Source of the DNA: Rhodococcus zopfii NBRC 100606 = JCM 9919
GTDB lineage: Bacteria; Actinomycetota; Actinomycetes; Mycobacteriales; Mycobacteriaceae
Direction of reading: 5' to 3'
Assembly (NCBI RefSeq): GCF_001895025.1
Contig: NZ_BCXI01000019.1
Span: 62,001 to 126,000, forward strand
DNA length: 64,000 nucleotides
Part shown: positions 46,048 through 54,294 of the stretch, in pieces
Numbering within the stretch: the first letter of the stretch is position 1
Layout of the letters: every line of letters begins with the position of its first letter
Notes under the pieces: generated by a model
The model's database searches: none
Seen by the model: only the letters and a program-made list of their open reading frames with translations
Told to the model about the DNA's origin: nothing
Program-made: the position numbers and the translations under genes

Positions 46048-46392
46048 ATGGAAATCCGCTTTCGCAACAACTATCCCGCCACGGTATCGGTGGCGGTGAT
46101 GTTCTACAGCCCCGGAACTTGTGGCCAGCATGGCAATTGGGGAACACGCGGCTGGTGGAACATCGCGCCTGGTCAGATGGCACACGTACTCAACACGGAA
46201 AACCGGTTCATGTGCTACTACGCCGAGGCCGGCGACGGCGCCCGGTGGGTCGGAAACTTCGGTCCGATGTACGTCTACCGGAACAGTTTCGATTCGTGCC
46301 TCAATCTCGGGTCGACCGCCGCGATCGGGCGCGTGGGAACACGGCAGGTCGATACCGGAGGGAAGAACACGATCGTCAACCTGAACCCCTGA
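46048..46392 (+). CDS. DUF1036-like small protein
   Basis: 114 residues, beta-rich with four cysteines or fewer and many aromatic residues. IRFRNNYPATVSVAVMF, GWWNIAPGQ and FMCYYAEAGDG match the pattern of DUF1036 proteins (a nascent beta-sandwich with 'TxGWWxLxPG' and 'YYYAE'). No signal peptide is present. The function of the family is not established. It lies 6 bp after the acidic protein gene and 75 bp before the metzincin gene. Its 3' end runs into an 8-bp tandem repeat. Confidence 0.76.
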   Translation: MEIRFRNNYPATVSVAVMFYSPGTCGQHGNWGTRGWWNIAPGQMAHVLNTENRFMCYYAEAGDGARWVGNFGPMYVYRNSFDSCLNLGSTAAIGRVGTRQVDTGGKNTIVNLNP

Positions 46393-46467: not shown

Positions 46468-47157
46468 ATGACCGAAAACAATGCCCGACATTACTGTTCG
46501 CTGGTGCTGCCGCCGCAGGACACCGAGAAGACCCGGGCCGCGCTGCTGAAGGAATCGAAATGGGGCGTCGGGGACCGGGTGACCGTCCGGTTCCTCGAGG
46601 GCGATCCGGACCTGCGACGGCGGGTGCGCAGCGTCGCGGAGGAATGGACCGGAGAGAAGATGGCGAATCTCGCCTTCCACTTTGTCGATTCCGGACCGGC
46701 GGACATCCGGATCGGCTTCGAACAGGGCGACGGCTCCTGGTCGTACCTGGGCACACAGTGTCGGCAGATCCCACCGGCGGAACGCACGATGAACTACGGC
46801 TGGCTCACGCCCTCGTCGTCCGACGACGAGTTGCGCCGCGTCGTGCTCCACGAGTTCGGGCATGCGCTCGGCCTCATCCACGAGCATCAGAATCCGAACC
46901 GTCCGATCGCCTGGAATCGGCGCGCCGTCATCGCCGATCTTTCGGGTCCGCCCAACAGATGGGATCCCGCGACGATCGAGCACAACATCTTCAAACGGTA
47001 TGACCCGCGGTCTGTTTCGGCAACTCCCACCGATGCGGACTCGATCATGATGTATCCGATTCCCGCCCGGTGGACCACCGACGGTTTCTCGGCCGATCTC
47101 AATTCGGAACTGTCCGACCCGGACAAGGAGTTCATCCGTGATGCCTACCCGTGGTGA
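46468..47157 (+). CDS. Metzincin zinc protease without signal peptide (astacin/matrixin-like)
   Basis: A 229-residue metalloprotease. The zinc motif is H128-E129-x2-H132-x2-G-x2-H138-E, followed by a Met-turn SIMMY (residues 192-196), the metzincin signature closest to astacin/M12A. No signal peptide, TM or propeptide is visible, so it should act in the cytosol, unlike most metzincins. GAGGAAGAA precedes ATG 46468. The CHAT gene begins 20 nt before its stop, so their synthesis is coupled. It may be effector, activator or target of the CHAT and caspase proteins. Confidence 0.88.
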   Translation: MTENNARHYCSLVLPPQDTEKTRAALLKESKWGVGDRVTVRFLEGDPDLRRRVRSVAEEWTGEKMANLAFHFVDSGPADIRIGFEQGDGSWSYLGTQCRQIPPAERTMNYGWLTPSSSDDELRRVVLHEFGHALGLIHEHQNPNRPIAWNRRAVIADLSGPPNRWDPATIEHNIFKRYDPRSVSATPTDADSIMMYPIPARWTTDGFSADLNSELSDPDKEFIRDAYPW

Positions 47158-48895
47158 GCATCGAGCGAAGGAGGCCGGTCGTTCCGTGACCGGCCTCCTG
47201 GCCCGAGTCGTGCGGACGGTCGTGAACATTCTGGCCCGCGTTCTCGACATGGTCCGCCTCGGCTCGGTGACCGTGAGGCGCCGACGTGTTCCGGAACCGT
47301 CGTCGGCCGAGGCTCGCAGGGACGGACGTGTTCTGGAATCCGCGGTACCCGAGCCGACGGCCGGAACCCGCACGGCCTATGCACGCCTGGACGCACCCGA
47401 CCGGGTTCCTCCCGGCGGCGTGTTCGAACTGCGCGTGGGTCTTGCGGAATCCTCCGGCCACGGCGTCACGAGCCCGAATCCCCTGTCGGTGCCGGACACC
47501 GAATTCACGCTGACGGTGACGGTATCCGCGGATGGCTTCGAGGTGCTCGGCGGCTCACCGATCCGCACGATCGCCGTGGGCCCCGACGATCCCTGCGCCT
47601 ACGATGTGATCCGGCTCCGCGCGGTCGACGACGCAGCTCTGGCACCGGCCCGCAGCATCCTCGCGGTATTTGCAATCGAAGGCCGCACGATCGGGATCGC
47701 CACCCGGTCCGTGCTGGTCGGCGACGGTCCCGCCCCCGCCGAGCCGGTCCGCCCGGACGCGGACTGGGTACTGCCGACGGACCCGGGAACGCGGCCCGAT
47801 CTGGAACTGGTGGTCGCGCCCGGCAACGACGCCGACGGACCGCGGCGTCTGTTCTGGTACTTCCGGTCCCCGCATGCGACGGTCGGCGACGGCAGATTCG
47901 TCGCCGCGGACCTCCCGGTGACGGTCGCGACGACCGTCCGGCAACTGATGACCGGTGTCGAGGACCGCTCGTCCGGAGTGGATCTGCCGTACTATCTGCG
48001 CGGCGTCGGTCGGCGCATCGCCGACGCGATTCCCGATCAGGTGTGGCGCGCGCTGAAAGCCGCAGCGGACGCGGTGGAGGGCCCGCCGAGTGTGCTGCTC
48101 GCGACCGCCGACCCGTACATTCCGTGGGAGCTCGCCCGCGTCCCGCAACCGTGGTGCGACGGCGACCCGCCCCTGCTCGGCGCGCAGACCGTGATCGGAC
48201 GCTGGCCGTACCTGGCACACGGCCGGAGTCCGGCTCCCGCTCCCGACCTCGAACTGGACTCGATGGCCGTCGTCTTCGGGAAGTACTCGGACAAGGAGAA
48301 CCTCGAGGAGGCAGCGCAGGAAGCCGCCCAGCTGTGCGCGCGTTATGCGGCGCAGCCCGTCGATGCCCGGATGAGCGACATCCTGCGCTGCCTCGACGGC
48401 ACCCCCCGCGCGGATGTGCTGCATCTCGCGGTGCACGGCAACTTCGACCCGACCGGTTTGCGCGACGGTATCTACCTCGTCGACGGGAACTATCTGAGCC
48501 CGGTGTCGGTCGAAGGAGTCGAGGCAAGTCCGGTCCGGTTGGCGTTCCTCAACGCCTGCCAGCTCGCGCAGGGCCGCGAAGTGTTCGGCGTGTACGCGGG
48601 TATTGCGTTCGCGCTGTTGAATATCGGCGCAGAGGCGGTGGTCGCGCCACTCTGGAAGGTGGACGACGGGGCGGCGCGTGAGCTCGTCGGGGGGTTCTAC
48701 CCGACGCTGTTCACCGGCATCCGCTCCCCCGCATCGATTCTGCGCGAGATCCGCTGCCGGTCAGTGGAATCCAGTCCAGCTGCAACCTCCCTCGCCTATG
48801 TCTACTTCGGTCATCCACTCTTGACGGTGAACTGGAAGTCCGCCGGTGATCGGTGCGGCGCGGAGTCGACCGCGCCCGCCGGAATCGTTCCCTGA
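47138..48895 (+). CDS. CHAT-domain cysteine protease-like protein 1
   Basis: A 585-residue protein. Residues ~16-50 are a hydrophobic/basic amphipathic stretch (GLLARVVRTVVNILARVLDMV), perhaps membrane-targeting. Residues ~85-215 look like a beta-sandwich (VPPGGVFELRVGLAES, TEFTLTVTVSADGF). The C-terminal CHAT domain has its catalytic dyad His433 (HLAVHGNF) and Cys474 (FLNACQLA) and ends with a conserved FGHPLLTV. CHAT proteases belong to clan CD with caspases and occur in bacterial conflict systems. GTG at 47138 lies 7 nt after AAGGAG; ATG at 47141 is the alternative. Confidence 0.88.
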   Translation: MMPTRGEHRAKEAGRSVTGLLARVVRTVVNILARVLDMVRLGSVTVRRRRVPEPSSAEARRDGRVLESAVPEPTAGTRTAYARLDAPDRVPPGGVFELRVGLAESSGHGVTSPNPLSVPDTEFTLTVTVSADGFEVLGGSPIRTIAVGPDDPCAYDVIRLRAVDDAALAPARSILAVFAIEGRTIGIATRSVLVGDGPAPAEPVRPDADWVLPTDPGTRPDLELVVAPGNDADGPRRLFWYFRSPHATVGDGRFVAADLPVTVATTVRQLMTGVEDRSSGVDLPYYLRGVGRRIADAIPDQVWRALKAAADAVEGPPSVLLATADPYIPWELARVPQPWCDGDPPLLGAQTVIGRWPYLAHGRSPAPAPDLELDSMAVVFGKYSDKENLEEAAQEAAQLCARYAAQPVDARMSDILRCLDGTPRADVLHLAVHGNFDPTGLRDGIYLVDGNYLSPVSVEGVEASPVRLAFLNACQLAQGREVFGVYAGIAFALLNIGAEAVVAPLWKVDDGAARELVGGFYPTLFTGIRSPASILREIRCRSVESSPAATSLAYVYFGHPLLTVNWKSAGDRCGAESTAPAGIVP

Positions 48896-49092
48896 GTGGG
48901 TGGCGCGCACGTGATCCTCGATTCCATTGTTCCCAAAAAGGATTCGCAGGTGACACGGCGGCACGCGTCTGCGGCCCCCCGACTGGTGGACTACCCGATT
49001 CCACGGATCCTCGTGAATCGAGGGACTACGCTCACTCGCTCGTGCGACGATGGAACCTCGAAGTCGTCCACTCCCCCACTGCGGAGCGATCG
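48896..49092. other. Intergenic gap within the protease cassette
   Basis: 197 bp between the two CHAT genes. A 77-codon frame crosses it without a ribosome site or codon bias. It may hold an internal promoter for the downstream pair; nothing else recognised. Confidence 0.45.
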
Positions 49093-51033
49093 ATGTCGAA
49101 CTCGAACCAGAACGCGCGCATCTCGGTGATCGCACCCCGGGGTGCACAGCCCCGTGTCGATGCGCTCGAACCGACGGCACTGCGGCTGCTGCTGCCGGAC
49201 CTTCCGCTCGACGCCGAGTACGCCGTCGCGGTGACCCTCCCGTCGCGCACCGATCAGGCTCCGATACCGGTCACCCTCGCGATCGGCTTCCCCCGTGGCG
49301 GAATTGCCCTGGTCTTCGACGAGGACGCGCAGGTGATCGTCACGGTCGACGGCCACGACGCCACCGACGGGAGCATCGACGTCGACGTGACGGTCCTGAC
49401 GCGCCTGATCGTCGTCTGGGTCCGCCGTCCCGAAACCGCTGCGATGGACGGCGGCATCCTCGAATCCGCCGGTCCCGGCGACACGCCACAGATCGACGCG
49501 TTCCTCGCGGCCGATCTCCCGCCGGTGCTGCAGGCCGGGGTCTCGACGGTGCTGACGGTCCGTCTCGCCCGCGAGGAGCTCGACGACCTCCCGGACCGTC
49601 GCGATGCCCAGATGCCGCTGCGGATCCGGCCGGACCTACCCCTGATGGTCAAGTTGTGGCGAGACAACCTGCGCGTCGCTCCCGGCACCCGAGACGTCCT
49701 CGAACTCGCGTGTCCTGCGCCGGGAGACGTCACGACCGGTGAGTTCCACGTGGTGGGCGAAGTGCCCGGGGAGGCCGTTGCGACGATCACGGTGCGACAA
49801 GGCAACAACGCCTTTCCACACTCCGCACTGGTCCTGACCGTCACGGTCACCTCGGGCCCGGTACCGGCCGGCCTTCCCCCGAGCATCGGCACTGCCCCGG
49901 TCGAACAGCTGGATCCACGACTGGGCGATCTCCCGGTCCTCGCCGTCGGCGAAGATCTCGTCGCCGGCACCGCGACCCTCACGTTCGACCTGTCGCTACC
50001 GGACGGGTTCCATCGCACGTACTCGGGTCTGTCGCTCGTCGACAAGCGCGGCTACCTGGCGCGTCTGTACGACCGCCTCGAGGAGCTGTGGGACCTCCAC
50101 AAGGACGCACCGACCCACGACGGGCGACGACGCGCCTTCGACACGGCGCTCGAGCACTACGGCAGCGAACTCGCCGACGATCTTCTGCCCGAGGCACTTC
50201 GTGACGATCTGGCCGCGCGGTGGACACTGCTCGACGGGCTGGCTGTCGTCACCACCGAAACCGACATCTCGTGGGAGCTCCTGACCGTCGAAGTGGACAG
50301 CGGCCCTGGCCCCAAGCGCCTGTTCCTCGGCGAGAAGGGCCTGATCCGCTGGTTCTGCGGCGGCGTGCACCCCGGGGCGTTGTCGCCGCTGCGCGACCGT
50401 CGCTGGGTCCTGTGCCCGGACGACTACCCGATCGGACTTCAGCTTCCGCACCTGACGTCCGAGCGGAACTACCTGCGCACCAAGCTCGGTGCGCGCGACA
50501 TCGTGCCGGGCTCCGCGGACGTACTCGGCAACCTGCTGTTCGAGCGCAAGGTCGATCTGCTGCATTTCGGAGGGCACGGCGACATCGACTCCGACAATGG
50601 GCTGCCGAAACTGTTGCTGAGCGGCTTCACCGGTCAGCTCCCACCCGATGCGGGCAGCGTCTACCCGGCCGATCGTCTCGCCCGCGACTATCCACATCCC
50701 CAGGACAGGTCGTCACCGGGACCGCTCGTGGTCCTCAATGCCTGCCGTGCCGGCCGCGCGCGTACCGGCACCGACGCGTTCGCTCCCGCGTTCCTTTCCG
50801 GCGGCGCGGGCGCGGTGCTGTGCTGCCTGTGGAACGTCGACGACGAGTCCGCCGCCGAGTTCGTCCACATGTTCTACGAGGCACTACGCAACAAGGAGAC
50901 CGTGTCGGAGGCGTTGACCATCGCGCGCACCGCGGCGCGCGCGATGGGCACCCCGGCATGGCTCGCGTACACCCTCTACGCACATCCGTTCGCCACCATC
51001 GACCTCACCGTCCCACCGGAGGAAATACCATGA
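49093..51033 (+). CDS. CHAT-domain cysteine protease-like protein 2
   Basis: A 646-residue protein. The N-terminal ~290 residues form repeated beta-rich modules (PLDAEYAVAVTLPS, TVDGHDATDGSIDVDVTVL, MVKLWRDNLRV, EVPGEAVATITVRQGN) unlike those of CHAT 1. A helical linker (about 310-400) includes RLYDRLEELWDLH. The CHAT domain has His495 (HFGGHGDID) and Cys551 (VLNACRAGR), and ends with a conserved AYTLYAHPFA. ATG 49093 has GGAGC upstream; the longer frame is not used. It overlaps the caspase-hydrolase gene by 4 nt. Its specificity is unknown. Confidence 0.88.
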   Translation: MSNSNQNARISVIAPRGAQPRVDALEPTALRLLLPDLPLDAEYAVAVTLPSRTDQAPIPVTLAIGFPRGGIALVFDEDAQVIVTVDGHDATDGSIDVDVTVLTRLIVVWVRRPETAAMDGGILESAGPGDTPQIDAFLAADLPPVLQAGVSTVLTVRLAREELDDLPDRRDAQMPLRIRPDLPLMVKLWRDNLRVAPGTRDVLELACPAPGDVTTGEFHVVGEVPGEAVATITVRQGNNAFPHSALVLTVTVTSGPVPAGLPPSIGTAPVEQLDPRLGDLPVLAVGEDLVAGTATLTFDLSLPDGFHRTYSGLSLVDKRGYLARLYDRLEELWDLHKDAPTHDGRRRAFDTALEHYGSELADDLLPEALRDDLAARWTLLDGLAVVTTETDISWELLTVEVDSGPGPKRLFLGEKGLIRWFCGGVHPGALSPLRDRRWVLCPDDYPIGLQLPHLTSERNYLRTKLGARDIVPGSADVLGNLLFERKVDLLHFGGHGDIDSDNGLPKLLLSGFTGQLPPDAGSVYPADRLARDYPHPQDRSSPGPLVVLNACRAGRARTGTDAFAPAFLSGGAGAVLCCLWNVDDESAAEFVHMFYEALRNKETVSEALTIARTAARAMGTPAWLAYTLYAHPFATIDLTVPPEEIP

Positions 51034-53105
51034 CACAACGCATCACCCGGGCCTCGTCCGGACTCACCCCGGACCAGGTCACCGCACTGCGCCCCCACGT
51101 CGTGGATCTGCGCGACGGCAAGCTCGCGACGGAAGCCGGCGGCGAGGGTGAGTTCTTCACCACCGACGCCGATGTCGAAGCGATCTTCGAAACGCATCTG
51201 CCGCAGTACGTCTCCGAGCACCGCGACGGCCCGGTCCCGCTCGTGCTCTACGCCCACGGCGGCGTGACGGCGGAGGCCAACGGCCTGCGGATCGCGCACC
51301 GGCAGATCCGTTGGTGGCTCGACAACGGCGCTTATCCCCTGCATTTCGTCTGGGAGACAGGGCTGGTCGACGCCGTAACCGATGCGCTGGCGGGCGTCCT
51401 CGCCCCGAGCGCCCGCGGACTGCTCGGCGACTTCCGCGATCGCGTGCTCGAAACGTTCGCGCGGCTCGCACAGGGCAAACGGCTGTGGGACGCGATGAAG
51501 GATGATGCGGTGACGGCCAGCGCTTCCGGTGGCGGCGCACGGCGGGTGGCGGAACTTCTCGGCACCTACGTCACCGATCATCCCGGCGCGATCACCGTGC
51601 ACGCGGTCGGCCACAGCGCCGGATCGATCTTCCACGCGCATCTGCTGCCCAACCTCCTCCACGCCGGCGTCGAGCGTGTGGACACGATCTCGTTGCTCGC
51701 CCCGGCCGCACGCACCGACCTGTTCGAACAGAAGGTGCTGCCACAGCTCGATTCGGGGAAGGTGGGCCACCTCACGATGTACTCGATGACCCAGCAGGCG
51801 GAACTGGACGATACGTGCGGGGGTGTCTACGGCAAGTCGCTGCTGTACCTGGTGAGCAGATCGTTCGAGCCGGAGATCGGCGCTCCGATCCTCGGGCTTC
51901 AGGAATCGGTTCGGGACAACGACCGGCTCGCCCGGTTGTTCCTCGACGGCACCGCGTCCACCGACGCCGTCTGGTCCCCGGTGACGGCAGGCCCACACGA
52001 CTCGAGTACCTCCCTCACTCACGGCGGGTTCGACGAGGACGCGCCCACGATGAACAGCGTCGCCCGCCGCATCCTCGCTCGCGACAACATCGTCGAGTTT
52101 CCCGAGGTCCGCGCCCGCGCGTCCGCACCCGAGGTGCTCCGCACCGCACCGGTCGCAGTGCCGCGATGGCCGAGCACATCGCCCCGCAAGGCCCTGTGCA
52201 TCGGGATCGACCGGTATCCGGACGTTCCGGACCGGCTCGGCGGATGCGTCGCCGACGCCTGCGAGTGGGCCGATGCGCTGCACCGCGTCGGTTTCGACGT
52301 CGAAAGCCTGCACGACGATCGGGCCGACCGCACGTCGATCCTGCGTGTGATGGTCGAACTCGTGTCCGGCGCGTCACCCGGCGATGTACTGGTCGTCCAG
52401 TATTCCGGGCACGGCACCCATGTGCCCGATCTGAACGGCGACGAGAGCGGGGCCGGCGACTCGGCCGACAAGCAGGACGAGGCCCTGTGCCCGGTGGATT
52501 TCCGCGGGGGCGAATTGCTCATCGACGATGACCTGGGGCAGGTCTGGGATCTGCTTCCGGTCGGGGTCGGACTCACACTGGTCTTCGATTCGTGTCACTC
52601 CGGCTCCGCCAACCGCGGCCTCAATTCCGCGGAACTGGAACAGATCCGCAAGGACACCGATTCGCTGCCGCGGTATCGGGTGCTCGACGACGAGACCGTG
52701 CGGAAATACCGGGAGATTCGCGGTTCCTCGGTTCCGGCGGAGACCCGCACGGACCGCGAACTCTTGTTCAGCGCGTGCAGCGCCGTCGAGGTCGCGTACG
52801 AGACGGCAGGCCACGGCGATTTCACCCGCAAGGCTGCGCCGCTGGTCGCTACCGCGGCGGGGTTCGTGACCAATGCCGAGTTCCTCGCCCGGGTGCGGGA
52901 CGGGTTCAATCCGCGTCAACATCCGGAGATCCACGGCTCGAACGACCTGCACGACCAGTTGTTCCTGTTCACCCCGACCGGCGCGCCGGCCGCGGCCGGC
53001 CCGACCGCCGCGTTGCGGGCGGGCAGCACCGACGGCCAGGTTCGGGCGGTCGCGGCGTTCCTGCGCGCCACCGCAGACCTCATCGACCCATCTGGCGGGA
53101 ACTAA
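51030..53105 (+). CDS. Alpha/beta-hydrolase fused to caspase-like (peptidase C14) domain
   Basis: A 691-residue two-domain protein. Residues ~60-340 are an alpha/beta-hydrolase: oxyanion loop LYAHGG, nucleophile Ser196 in GHSAGS, and a candidate acid/His in the later part. Residues ~385-650 are a caspase-like domain: KALCIGIDRYP start, His461 in YSGHGTHVPD and Cys522 in FDSCHSGS, followed by a small-subunit-like part ELLFSACS. The two are joined by a ~50-residue linker. The start overlaps the CHAT 2 stop (ATGA). It may be that proteolysis by one domain or its CHAT neighbours releases or activates the hydrolase. This pairing is not one I recognise from a named system. Confidence 0.9.
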   Translation: MTQRITRASSGLTPDQVTALRPHVVDLRDGKLATEAGGEGEFFTTDADVEAIFETHLPQYVSEHRDGPVPLVLYAHGGVTAEANGLRIAHRQIRWWLDNGAYPLHFVWETGLVDAVTDALAGVLAPSARGLLGDFRDRVLETFARLAQGKRLWDAMKDDAVTASASGGGARRVAELLGTYVTDHPGAITVHAVGHSAGSIFHAHLLPNLLHAGVERVDTISLLAPAARTDLFEQKVLPQLDSGKVGHLTMYSMTQQAELDDTCGGVYGKSLLYLVSRSFEPEIGAPILGLQESVRDNDRLARLFLDGTASTDAVWSPVTAGPHDSSTSLTHGGFDEDAPTMNSVARRILARDNIVEFPEVRARASAPEVLRTAPVAVPRWPSTSPRKALCIGIDRYPDVPDRLGGCVADACEWADALHRVGFDVESLHDDRADRTSILRVMVELVSGASPGDVLVVQYSGHGTHVPDLNGDESGAGDSADKQDEALCPVDFRGGELLIDDDLGQVWDLLPVGVGLTLVFDSCHSGSANRGLNSAELEQIRKDTDSLPRYRVLDDETVRKYREIRGSSVPAETRTDRELLFSACSAVEVAYETAGHGDFTRKAAPLVATAAGFVTNAEFLARVRDGFNPRQHPEIHGSNDLHDQLFLFTPTGAPAAAGPTAALRAGSTDGQVRAVAAFLRATADLIDPSGGN

Positions 53106-53109
53106 CCGT

Positions 53110-54294
53110 TCAGTGCGGCGCCGCGTCCACCAGGTCGTGTTCGACGCGGTAGTCCGCGCGCATCCGCTCCATCGAGACGTCGCGGCCCTTGTAGGCGCGC
53201 AGCGTCACCCGTTCCCGATCCGGGTAGCGCAGGTCCTGGATCCGATTGACCAGGGCCAGGGCCGGGCCGATCCGCCGCAGCACGTGCTTGACCGGCCCGT
53301 CCGGGATGCGGAGGGCGTCGGCATCGGCGTCGCCGATGAACACGCGCTGCAAGCCGTACATCAACGTCTTCGAAACGGCCCGCGTGAACCGCTCGTTGCC
53401 GGGCAGCAGGTTGGCGAGTTCGGGAACGAGGTAGTCGCCGGTGAGCGCGACGACGAAGTCCCGGTCGTCGTCGCTCGGGCCGGGCGAGGTCAGCCGGTAC
53501 AACTCCTCGACGAGGAGGTGGTCGGCTTCCTTGCACAGGTTCAGGTCGTCGCTCATGCCGATGACGTGGCCGACGTAGCGCCACAGGTGGTAGATGTCGT
53601 CGCGTTCCTCGTCGGTGAACCGCACGCCCAGCATTTCCATCGCCTCGACGGCGATGTGCCCGAACTCCGCCATCGTCAGCGCCATGTAGGACTGCGGGAT
53701 CGGTACACCCCACGCCTCCTCGTCCCAGCGACCGCTCGCGAGGATGCCGCGACGCACGTGCGCGTGGATCAGCCGCACCCGCACGGTGAACGCGAAACCC
53801 GCTGCGTCGCGTCGCATTCCACCGCGGGTGAGCACGTGCCGCAGCCACTCCCCGACCTCGACCGACCGCACCGCCGGCTGGCTGACATACCGGCCCGTCA
53901 GCGCGAGCGGTTTGCCGGCGATCTCGTTGCCGGCACCGCGCACCAGCGAGGCGGCACCGAGCACCATGCCGAGGATCGAGGTGTGCCGGACGAGGGCGTC
54001 GGCGGCGTTGTCGAGACGGTCGTGGTCGACCCAGTCGGGTTCGTCGTCGAGGAATTTGAACAGCATTCGCAGAGACTCGGGTGCATCGGCAACCGAATCG
54101 ATTCCCCCGGCGAGGGCGGCGCGCACCGCTTCCGTCGCGGACGAGGCGCCGAAGTCGTCGGCGACGACGGCGTCGGCCAGCGGATCACCGTGCCACATTC
54201 CGTCCAGCCATCGGTGCCCGAGGTCGCCGTAGCGACGCACCGCAACATCGGCGTTGACAAGGTCACGAGGAATCCGTCGCTCCATGCATTTCAT
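53110..54294 (-). CDS. Oxygenase of the MpaB/Lcp family (DUF2236)
   Basis: A 394-residue helical protein. The conserved arginine-histidine segment RVRLIHAHVRR and the preceding RRDAAGFAF match DUF2236 haem proteins, which include latex-clearing protein (Lcp, a rubber oxygenase) and fungal MpaB; the His in this segment is the likely haem ligand. Length is close to Lcp. No Tat signal is seen. ATG at 54294 is preferred; GTG at 54315 and ATG at 54285 are alternatives. It ends 5 bp from the caspase-hydrolase gene, convergently, and diverges from a TetR gene. Confidence 0.8.
   Translation of the reverse strand: MKCMERRIPRDLVNADVAVRRYGDLGHRWLDGMWHGDPLADAVVADDFGASSATEAVRAALAGGIDSVADAPESLRMLFKFLDDEPDWVDHDRLDNAADALVRHTSILGMVLGAASLVRGAGNEIAGKPLALTGRYVSQPAVRSVEVGEWLRHVLTRGGMRRDAAGFAFTVRVRLIHAHVRRGILASGRWDEEAWGVPIPQSYMALTMAEFGHIAVEAMEMLGVRFTDEERDDIYHLWRYVGHVIGMSDDLNLCKEADHLLVEELYRLTSPGPSDDDRDFVVALTGDYLVPELANLLPGNERFTRAVSKTLMYGLQRVFIGDADADALRIPDGPVKHVLRRIGPALALVNRIQDLRYPDRERVTLRAYKGRDVSMERMRADYRVEHDLVDAAPH

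Follow-up and report, generated by a model that had tools for sequence, protein, structure and literature searches.

Several described systems come close to the locus analyzed here. In the VMAP conflict systems, a caspase-superfamily domain is always accompanied by a neighbouring alpha/beta-hydrolase gene, with which it is predicted to act jointly (Kaur 2020, eLife, PMC7159879). In the Canu antiphage loci a caspase partners a nuclease effector, and insertions are believed to block the effector's active site (PMC12799240). Polymorphic toxins use caspase-like and papain-like releasing peptidases and count alpha/beta-hydrolases among their toxin domains (PMC3482391), and alpha/beta-hydrolases have been predicted to serve as membrane-lipid effectors (PMC8195603). 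Additionally, a Chitinophaga pinensis protein described in 2012 combines Amidase_2, a GDSL lipase and a metacaspase (PMC3501461), and the TPR-CHAT component of Craspase is a CHAT protease that is turned on by infection-related RNA.

We analyzed a 64,000-nucleotide stretch of the Rhodococcus zopfii genome (hereafter the window). The host is a soil bacterium. A single uninterrupted reading frame (691 codons and a stop), HydCasp, encodes an N-terminal, lipase-like alpha/beta-hydrolase followed by a metacaspase-like C14 domain, and its start codon overlaps the stop of the CHAT2 gene by 4 bases (Table 1). We judge the chances about even that CHAT2 together with HydCasp makes up an intracellular conflict module of two genes, probably of the suicide or abortive-infection kind. 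CHAT2 would sense or relay the trigger as the initiator protease, the HydCasp caspase domain would follow as downstream protease and unlock or mature the hydrolase tethered to it, and the hydrolase would attack an ester, likely one in a membrane lipid or some other essential acyl compound. The parts of this model that we infer are CHAT2 as initiator, activation by proteolysis, the identity of the substrate and a role in defence.

Table 1. Features of the CHAT2-HydCasp locus (window coordinates).
Feature	Position	Strand	Remark
Matrixin-like metalloprotease (HExxH), neighbour	46468..47157	+	accompanies CHAT1 in G007
CHAT1, neighbour	47138..48895	+	without the block in G007 and G012
CHAT2-HydCasp block (~4.24 kb)	48872..53112	+	missing in two related genomes
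CHAT2 (DUF7363 + CHAT domain)	49093..51033	+	646 aa from likely ATG
HydCasp (hydrolase-caspase fusion gene)	51030..53105	+	691 aa
Alpha/beta-hydrolase domain, residues 1-370	51030..52139	+	alignment, conservation, predicted model, structural alignment
Ser196 codon	51615-51617	+	
His331 codon	52020-52022	+	
Variable linker, ~residues 359-386	52104..52187	+	length differs among homologues, no conserved motif
C14 metacaspase-like domain, residues 386-635	52185..52934	+	Pfam
His461 codon	52410-52412	+	
Cys522 codon	52593-52595	+	
Conserved C-terminal segment with LRxxADL, ~residues 671-686	53040..53087	+	downstream of variable spacer

The fusion is not a chance arrangement, since Rhodococcus yananensis encodes a near full-length relative of 62% identity and the hydrolase, caspase and C1 profiles found no match in 25 comparison loci (443 kb; 20 VMAP loci plus 5 stretches from genus relatives). 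An antisense ORF at 50976-52313, favoured by a GC3 heuristic, was dropped in view of the conservation of the sense protein across phyla. By a heuristic hydropathy scan, HydCasp has no strongly hydrophobic stretch (19-residue maximum 1.32), and Pfam found no secretion domain in it. The PADLOC caspase model matches protein P0001 at 39 bits. A full-length AlphaFold model of HydCasp, built from 2 sequences, had a mean pLDDT of 39.7 and was kept out of fold searches.

Because residues 1-370 match no Pfam or NCBIfam family above cut-off, we assigned the hydrolase domain from an 11-sequence alignment and a predicted model. The residues H76-G77-G78, H195-S196-x-G198 and H331 are invariant in this alignment. 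Ser196, Glu258 and His331 are conserved in all 32 loci of the family described below, and Asp261 in 31; Ser196 and His331 are the predicted catalytic residues, and the acid is probably Glu258 or Asp261. The model of this domain (3 sequences) is of modest confidence, with a mean pLDDT of 59.8 and pTM of 0.69, and aligns with the thioesterase TesA, dienelactone hydrolases, cutinases and phospholipase A1 at Z of about 10-11 when the Foldseek list is re-aligned with VIA. Foldseek gave no match to it at E <= 0.001, and the best hit of the hydrolase profile against PDB sequences reached an E of only 0.039. With a nucleophile-elbow Ser, a catalytic His and the predicted fold, residues 1-370 qualify as a member of the alpha/beta-hydrolase superfamily. 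Some homologues show DUF900/Abhydrolase matches below cut-off.

The second domain matches Pfam C14 (PF00656; E 5e-20, 72.6 bits against a cut-off of 21.4), and the caspase profile finds yeast metacaspase-1 (4f6o) with an E of 4.4e-46. His461 and Cys522 are invariant in 11/11 aligned caspases, and the domain is assigned by sequence as a caspase/metacaspase with an intact His-Cys dyad. Against the EACC1-caspase model (NF047832) it scores 21.7 bits, below the cut-off of 140, and by this model it is no member of the EACC1-caspase system. The LRxxADL segment lies at the C-terminus of every one of the seven hydrolase-caspase fusions, with R679, A682 and D683 invariant. The sequence-only reading, which had described an alpha/beta-hydrolase fused to a caspase-like domain with Ser196, His461 and Cys522 as active-site residues, is borne out by these results on both counts.

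Members of the hydrolase family occur in 32 loci from Actinomycetota, Cyanobacteriota, Pseudomonadota and one viral contig, and all have a cysteine protease as partner, which is in cis in 24 and encoded by the next gene in 8. In 17 loci the hydrolase is fused to an N-terminal papain (C1) and in 7 to a C-terminal caspase; the other 8 have a separate hydrolase gene followed by a caspase gene, the caspase match in L094 being partial. The coupling of hydrolase and cysteine protease across the family is well supported, and a protease fused to or neighbouring relatives in such distant bacteria suggests protease control of the hydrolase. The count contains non-independent loci (L092 and L101 are near-identical; L090, L096 and L102 share one plasmid). 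Among the 11 seed sequences, five (window, L004, L017, L020, L022) derive from matches extending over the caspase as well; hydrolase-only queries return all 32 loci. L120 and L122, where a caspase gene lies next to C1 with a partial hydrolase, were left out because they had been found via the caspase, and L024, L026, L027 and L028, chosen for their caspase, have no family hydrolase. The plasmid records examined were those listed or returned by the hydrolase queries. Viral contigs yielded one C1-hydrolase locus (L103) and none with a full fusion alignment.

The cap region is longer by about 130-180 residues in all 8 unfused hydrolases and in none of the 24 fused ones; the Trp108-Trp153 spacing is 183-224 residues in the unfused and 42-57 in the fused members. 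Since the unfused, long-cap members form a single clade, we rejected many independent insertions and count the contrast as one event. In the hydrolase tree, cis-caspase and trans-caspase hydrolases are sister clades (0.876). The caspase tree, in which 5 of 9 other caspases (L043, L044, L120, L122, L123) come from loci that also have a family hydrolase, places cis (0.965) and trans (1.000) caspases in separate, non-sister clades divided by a branch of 0.915. Supports in these trees are moderate. Distribution is patchy: the family hydrolase is present in at least 10 of 394 class genomes, where, as in the phylum sample, scoring took in at most 5 candidates from each genome and misses are possible, and in 2 of 18 genus genomes.

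CHAT2 matches PF12770 at 69.4 bits (cut-off 24) and has GHG and NAC motifs whose His and Cys are invariant in 4/4 sequences, so that by profile and dyad it is a predicted CHAT protease. It also has no strongly hydrophobic stretch (19-residue maximum 1.62, heuristic). Strong matches (955-1160 bits) were found in at least 3 of 394 class genomes, with the best 2 candidates per genome scored and misses possible, and each adjoins HydCasp; the R. yananensis fusion likewise has CHAT2 alongside. Altogether CHAT2 adjoins 4 of the 7 hydrolase-caspase fusions, a linkage that spans two actinobacterial families, and it was not found in the examined stretches of the other three (L017, L043, L044). In the related genomes G007 and G012 the block is absent and CHAT1 directly adjoins the next gene, although the G012 CHAT1 is a C-terminal part only, at a contig end. 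Each relative compared has either both CHAT2 and HydCasp or neither. Because of these empty sites, CHAT1 and the metalloprotease were set apart from the system, and the 16 kb around the R. yananensis fusion holds neither a CHAT1 orthologue nor the metalloprotease. Thus, CHAT1 is probably a separate unit, and the sequence-only reading's "CHAT proteins" as partners narrow to CHAT2.

The conflict module is favoured because of the coupling in all 32 loci, the conserved catalytic residues and the several protease partners, as well as the linkage to CHAT2, the 4-base overlap, the absence of the block from two relatives and the rarity within the genus. The lack of strongly hydrophobic stretches in both proteins and the PADLOC caspase match of P0001 also favour it, as do the precedents of a protease-unlocked effector in Canu and of alpha/beta-hydrolases as lipid effectors. 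It is weakened by a linker without a conserved site, a cap contrast that amounts to one event, and the presence of CHAT2 at only 4 of 7 fusions. The moderate tree supports, the shared-locus caspases in the tree and the lack of a defence-island context weigh in the same direction; PADLOC on 10 neighbouring proteins from 6 loci revealed no such context and gave a single match, near L022, to an RmuC-type protein, which Pfam likewise assigns to RmuC.

The sequence-only reading had gone further and suggested that caspase-type cleavage releases or controls the hydrolase; in its exact form, either the caspase or one of the CHAT proteases would cut the linker at about 340-385 and the freed hydrolase would then be active. 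Metacaspases cleave after Arg or Lys. A metacaspase-like pocket with Asp520 near Cys522 suggests the same preference here, and by eye each of the seven fusions has arginines in its linker region. However, arginines are frequent in GC-rich proteins, the linker is unalignable (about 30 to about 80 residues among homologues) with no conserved cleavage site or motif across the seven fusions, and the invariant arginines 529, 548 and 561 lie within the caspase domain instead. Release through linker cleavage thus has only partial support, and we consider this exact model unlikely; the wider idea of caspase control draws support from the family-wide coupling. A lytic or exported role fits as well, given that members in at least five loci adjoin, or are joined with, proteins that hydrolyse or bind peptidoglycan: Kovacikia encodes Amidase_2, hydrolase and caspase as one polypeptide, and the rhizobial L092, L093, L098 and L100 have genes for lysozyme, CHAP/peptidoglycan-binding or Amidase_2 proteins in their vicinity.

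Such an effector would carry several warheads, the hydrolase acting on lipid, the caspase on proteins and, in some members, an amidase on peptidoglycan, with the protease serving to separate or mature these components and not to activate them, in self-lysis or after export. The Chitinophaga protein (PMC3501461) and the releasing peptidases of polymorphic toxins (PMC3482391) speak for it. Against it, HydCasp lacks both a Pfam secretion domain and a strongly hydrophobic stretch, no immunity gene was recognised, and by Pfam the window's block encodes no peptidoglycan hydrolase, which leaves this explanation rather unlikely, if somewhat less so than linker cleavage. We regard as quite improbable a dual housekeeping or stress enzyme, in which an esterase or thioesterase of the cytoplasm would carry its caspase for turnover or quality control outside any conflict. 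Thioesterases and dienelactone hydrolases are among the best structural matches and the sole PADLOC match among scanned neighbours is RmuC-type, but the patchy distribution, the several protease partners and presence or absence as a block argue otherwise.

Extending the conflict module to the whole family, we tentatively propose, as a possibility that we hold below even, that the hydrolase is a general protease-gated effector with three kinds of partner: N-terminal papain, C-terminal caspase and caspase in trans. Where the caspase is in trans, a cleavable cap insertion would keep the enzyme off; in Rhodococcus, the hydrolase would have become the effector, attacking esters, of an unnamed CHAT-to-caspase proteolytic cascade of two genes. 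If true, proteolytic gating in bacterial conflict would widen from pores and nucleases to alpha/beta-hydrolases, and one effector family would be served by several protease families. The compact cascade would offer both proteases and the effector for testing in a laboratory actinobacterium, and the cap-insert contrast and family-wide coupling yield direct, falsifiable predictions.

How does the locus compare with the described systems? The CHAT protease recalls Craspase, but CHAT2 carries DUF7363 with no TPR by Pfam, and no gRAMP component was recognised in the scanned window proteins. Polymorphic toxins likewise join cysteine peptidases of both folds to enzymatic payloads; their peptidase lies just upstream of a C-terminal toxin, whereas the HydCasp caspase is C-terminal to the hydrolase, and HydCasp has no recognised secretion domain or immunity gene. 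The Chitinophaga protein resembles the Kovacikia polypeptide in uniting lipase, amidase and caspase, with a lipase of another family, GDSL. As in Canu, the unfused family hydrolases carry an insertion, in their case in the cap; the effector here is an alpha/beta-hydrolase rather than an MBL-type nuclease, HydCasp is fused and has no long insert, and no nuclease family matched either block gene or the scanned neighbours, which sets the locus outside Canu. Membership of the VMAP ternary system was rejected, as no VMAP, vWA or MoxR family matched by Pfam among the window proteins scanned; VMAP-C has 0 matches in the host's own genome, and 20 actinobacterial VMAP loci (of 32 VMAP-C places) gave no match to the HydCasp-type hydrolase or caspase profile. 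VMAP shares with HydCasp the caspase/alpha-beta-hydrolase pairing, which in VMAP consists of neighbouring genes and in HydCasp is a fusion beside CHAT2. Search listings of the open-access literature returned no published report of a HydCasp-type fusion with CHAT2. The sequence-only reading's view that no named system fits may therefore hold for the fusion with CHAT2 and does not extend to the pairing: the pairing of caspase and alpha/beta-hydrolase is already known from VMAP systems (PMC7159879), and the HydCasp-CHAT2 variant would be the new part.

HydCasp, the hydrolase-caspase fusion of the window, has 691 residues; Pfam places its caspase domain at residues 386–635 and gives no family match for the first 370. 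Aligned with ten homologues, the hydrolase half retains the HGG motif, Ser196 in its HSxG elbow, and His331. Structural alignment of a domain model of modest confidence gave Z scores of ~10–11 against thioesterases, cutinases and dienelactone hydrolases, while Foldseek itself returned nothing for the model at E ≤ 0.001. On these motifs and the model, the N-terminal half is an alpha/beta-hydrolase. The sequence-only reading had placed active-site residues at Ser196, His461 and Cys522, and all three stand at those positions. The PADLOC match of HydCasp came via a caspase model only (39 bits). Within the caspase domain, the acidic residues D467, D471, D483, E484, D499, D500 and D520 are invariant in all seven hydrolase-caspase fusions. 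Metacaspases prefer Arg/Lys and are controlled by calcium; by analogy, these residues suggest metacaspase-like Arg/Lys preference and calcium control. All seven fusions also carry a short C-terminal LRxxADL segment beyond a variable spacer, possibly a docking motif; elsewhere in the compared set the pattern is only internal to other proteins.

To survey the hydrolase family, a domain profile was searched in overlapping samples from the genus (18 genomes), the class (394) and the phylum (396); it matched 13 distinct genomes. Hydrolase-only queries of a plasmid collection yielded 18 loci spread over 16 records, every one of which was fetched, and a scan of viral contigs added one more. Seven of the 32 loci encode hydrolase-caspase fusions, 17 encode fusions with an N-terminal papain-type (C1) protease, and eight have a separate hydrolase gene with a caspase gene directly downstream (in L094 the caspase match is partial only). 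A cysteine protease was present in every one of the 32. The control set, 25 other loci totalling 443 kb (20 VMAP loci, five genus-relative stretches), gave no match to any of the three profiles. Ser196, His331, Glu258, His195, Trp108 and Trp153 are conserved in 32/32 loci and Asp261 in 31/32.

In the hydrolase tree (32 rows), loci with a fused (cis) caspase formed one clade (0.990), as did those with a separate (trans) caspase (0.999); the two were sisters (0.876), and the C1 fusions fell outside them. A tree of the caspases (23 rows) also separated cis (0.965) from trans (1.000) members, and there the two were not sisters; the dividing branch has 0.915. The caspase tree included nine other caspases: four from loci without the hydrolase family (L024, L027, L028, L121), second caspase genes near a fusion (L043, L044), and three near C1-hydrolase genes (L120, L122, L123). 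The simplest reading of these trees, with moderate support, is that the hydrolase acquired cysteine-protease partners more than once. Trp108 and Trp153 lie 42–57 residues apart in 24/24 fused proteins versus 183–224 in 8/8 unfused ones, and the HGG-to-GHS spacing, obtained for 27/32, agrees. The middle of this cap insert is poorly conserved with many charged residues; it is restricted to one clade, hence a single evolutionary event.

HydCasp begins 4 bases before CHAT2 ends. Two relatives, G007 and G012, both lack the ~4.24 kb with CHAT2 and HydCasp. G007 has the metalloprotease and CHAT1, with an MPAB-like gene ~110 bases after CHAT1; in the window that gene follows HydCasp. In G012 the CHAT1 end lies within ~20 bases of the MPAB-like gene, and the contig stops inside CHAT1. 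Because both genes occur in G007 and the CHAT1 end in G012, the metalloprotease and CHAT1 look like a separate two-gene unit. Two further relatives, G016 and G004, have the MPAB-like gene, and within the stretch compared the 45–53 kb part of the window is unmatched. In R. yananensis, CHAT2-HydCasp adjoins a Cys/Met-metabolism gene, and neither a CHAT1 orthologue nor the metalloprotease was found in the 16 kb examined around the fusion. Strong CHAT2 matches occurred in 3/394 class genomes (two candidates scored per genome), each adjoining HydCasp; the next matches dropped to 82 bits. CHAT2 adjoins four of the seven hydrolase-caspase fusions (window, L004, L022, L045) and was not found in the stretch of L017 examined; L043 and L044 instead have, close by, a flotillin-like gene and a second caspase gene.

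Coordinates of features in the window, in loci (L) fetched for comparison and in one phage record
Feature	Location	Remarks
DUF1036 protein	window 46048-46392	small; immediately upstream of metalloprotease
Metalloprotease	window 46468-47157(+)	matrixin-like, HExxH; NCBIfam NF050131 (AbsR1, beta-glucuronidase) 132.9 bits, far under cut-off 650; name odd for an HExxH protein
CHAT1	window 47138-48895(+)	
CHAT2	window 49093-51033(+)	DUF7363 + CHAT
HydCasp	window 51030-53105(+)	open frame
LRxxADL segment	window 53040-53087	
Hydrolase-caspase with SPFH/flotillin-like protein	L043:5311-12984; L044:5443-12540	stand-alone second caspase gene; SPFH protein has N-terminal extension of 200-250 residues
Caspase + CHAT1-like pair	L024:7274-10524	
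Amidase_2-hydrolase-caspase	L017:9224-12208	single 994-aa protein; Kovacikia (cyanobacterial plasmid)
Metalloprotease homologue	L017:6889-7516(minus)	two-frame split; near Amidase_2-hydrolase-caspase gene
pYEATS-domain protein	L092:11534-13492; L093:11540-13501	directly downstream of hydrolase + caspase genes; lysozyme or CHAP/peptidoglycan-binding gene upstream
C1-hydrolase fusion	L103:4759-7152	797 aa; viral contig (IMG/VR)
C1 protease with incomplete hydrolase match, then caspase gene with long N-terminal part	L120:2-3529; L122:1-3559	both protease types in one locus
Caspase-like stretch	LR745208.1:346159-346599	uncultured phage; 37% identity to HydCasp residues 387-534

Both active sites are conserved, the hydrolase is coupled to proteases, and CHAT2 and HydCasp are linked and jointly present or absent. 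We propose that CHAT2 would act as initiator and that the caspase domain would unlock or mature the hydrolase, which may attack a lipid or other acyl ester, with suicide or growth arrest as the predicted outcome. For the specific linker cut put forward by the sequence-only reading, no supporting motif was seen in the linker. A housekeeping esterase is a weakened explanation because the hydrolase family is patchily distributed. We keep alive the alternative of a lytic or exported multi-warhead effector: some rhizobial and Kovacikia members have peptidoglycan-hydrolase or -binding proteins nearby or in fusion (five loci seen, not a systematic count), although export in Rhodococcus is disfavored by a HydCasp with neither a secretion domain (Pfam) nor a strongly hydrophobic stretch (heuristic).

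The cap insert of the unfused hydrolases is similar to the insertions that have been proposed to block the nuclease of Canu, a caspase-nuclease antiphage system (PMC12799240). The 20 VMAP loci examined, of 32 VMAP-C places listed, held neither a hydrolase nor a caspase of the HydCasp type. According to Kaur et al. 2020 (PMC7159879), caspase-bearing VMAP systems always have a neighbouring alpha/beta-hydrolase gene, and Zhang et al. 2012 (PMC3482391) describe toxins with caspase-like and papain-like releasing peptidases.
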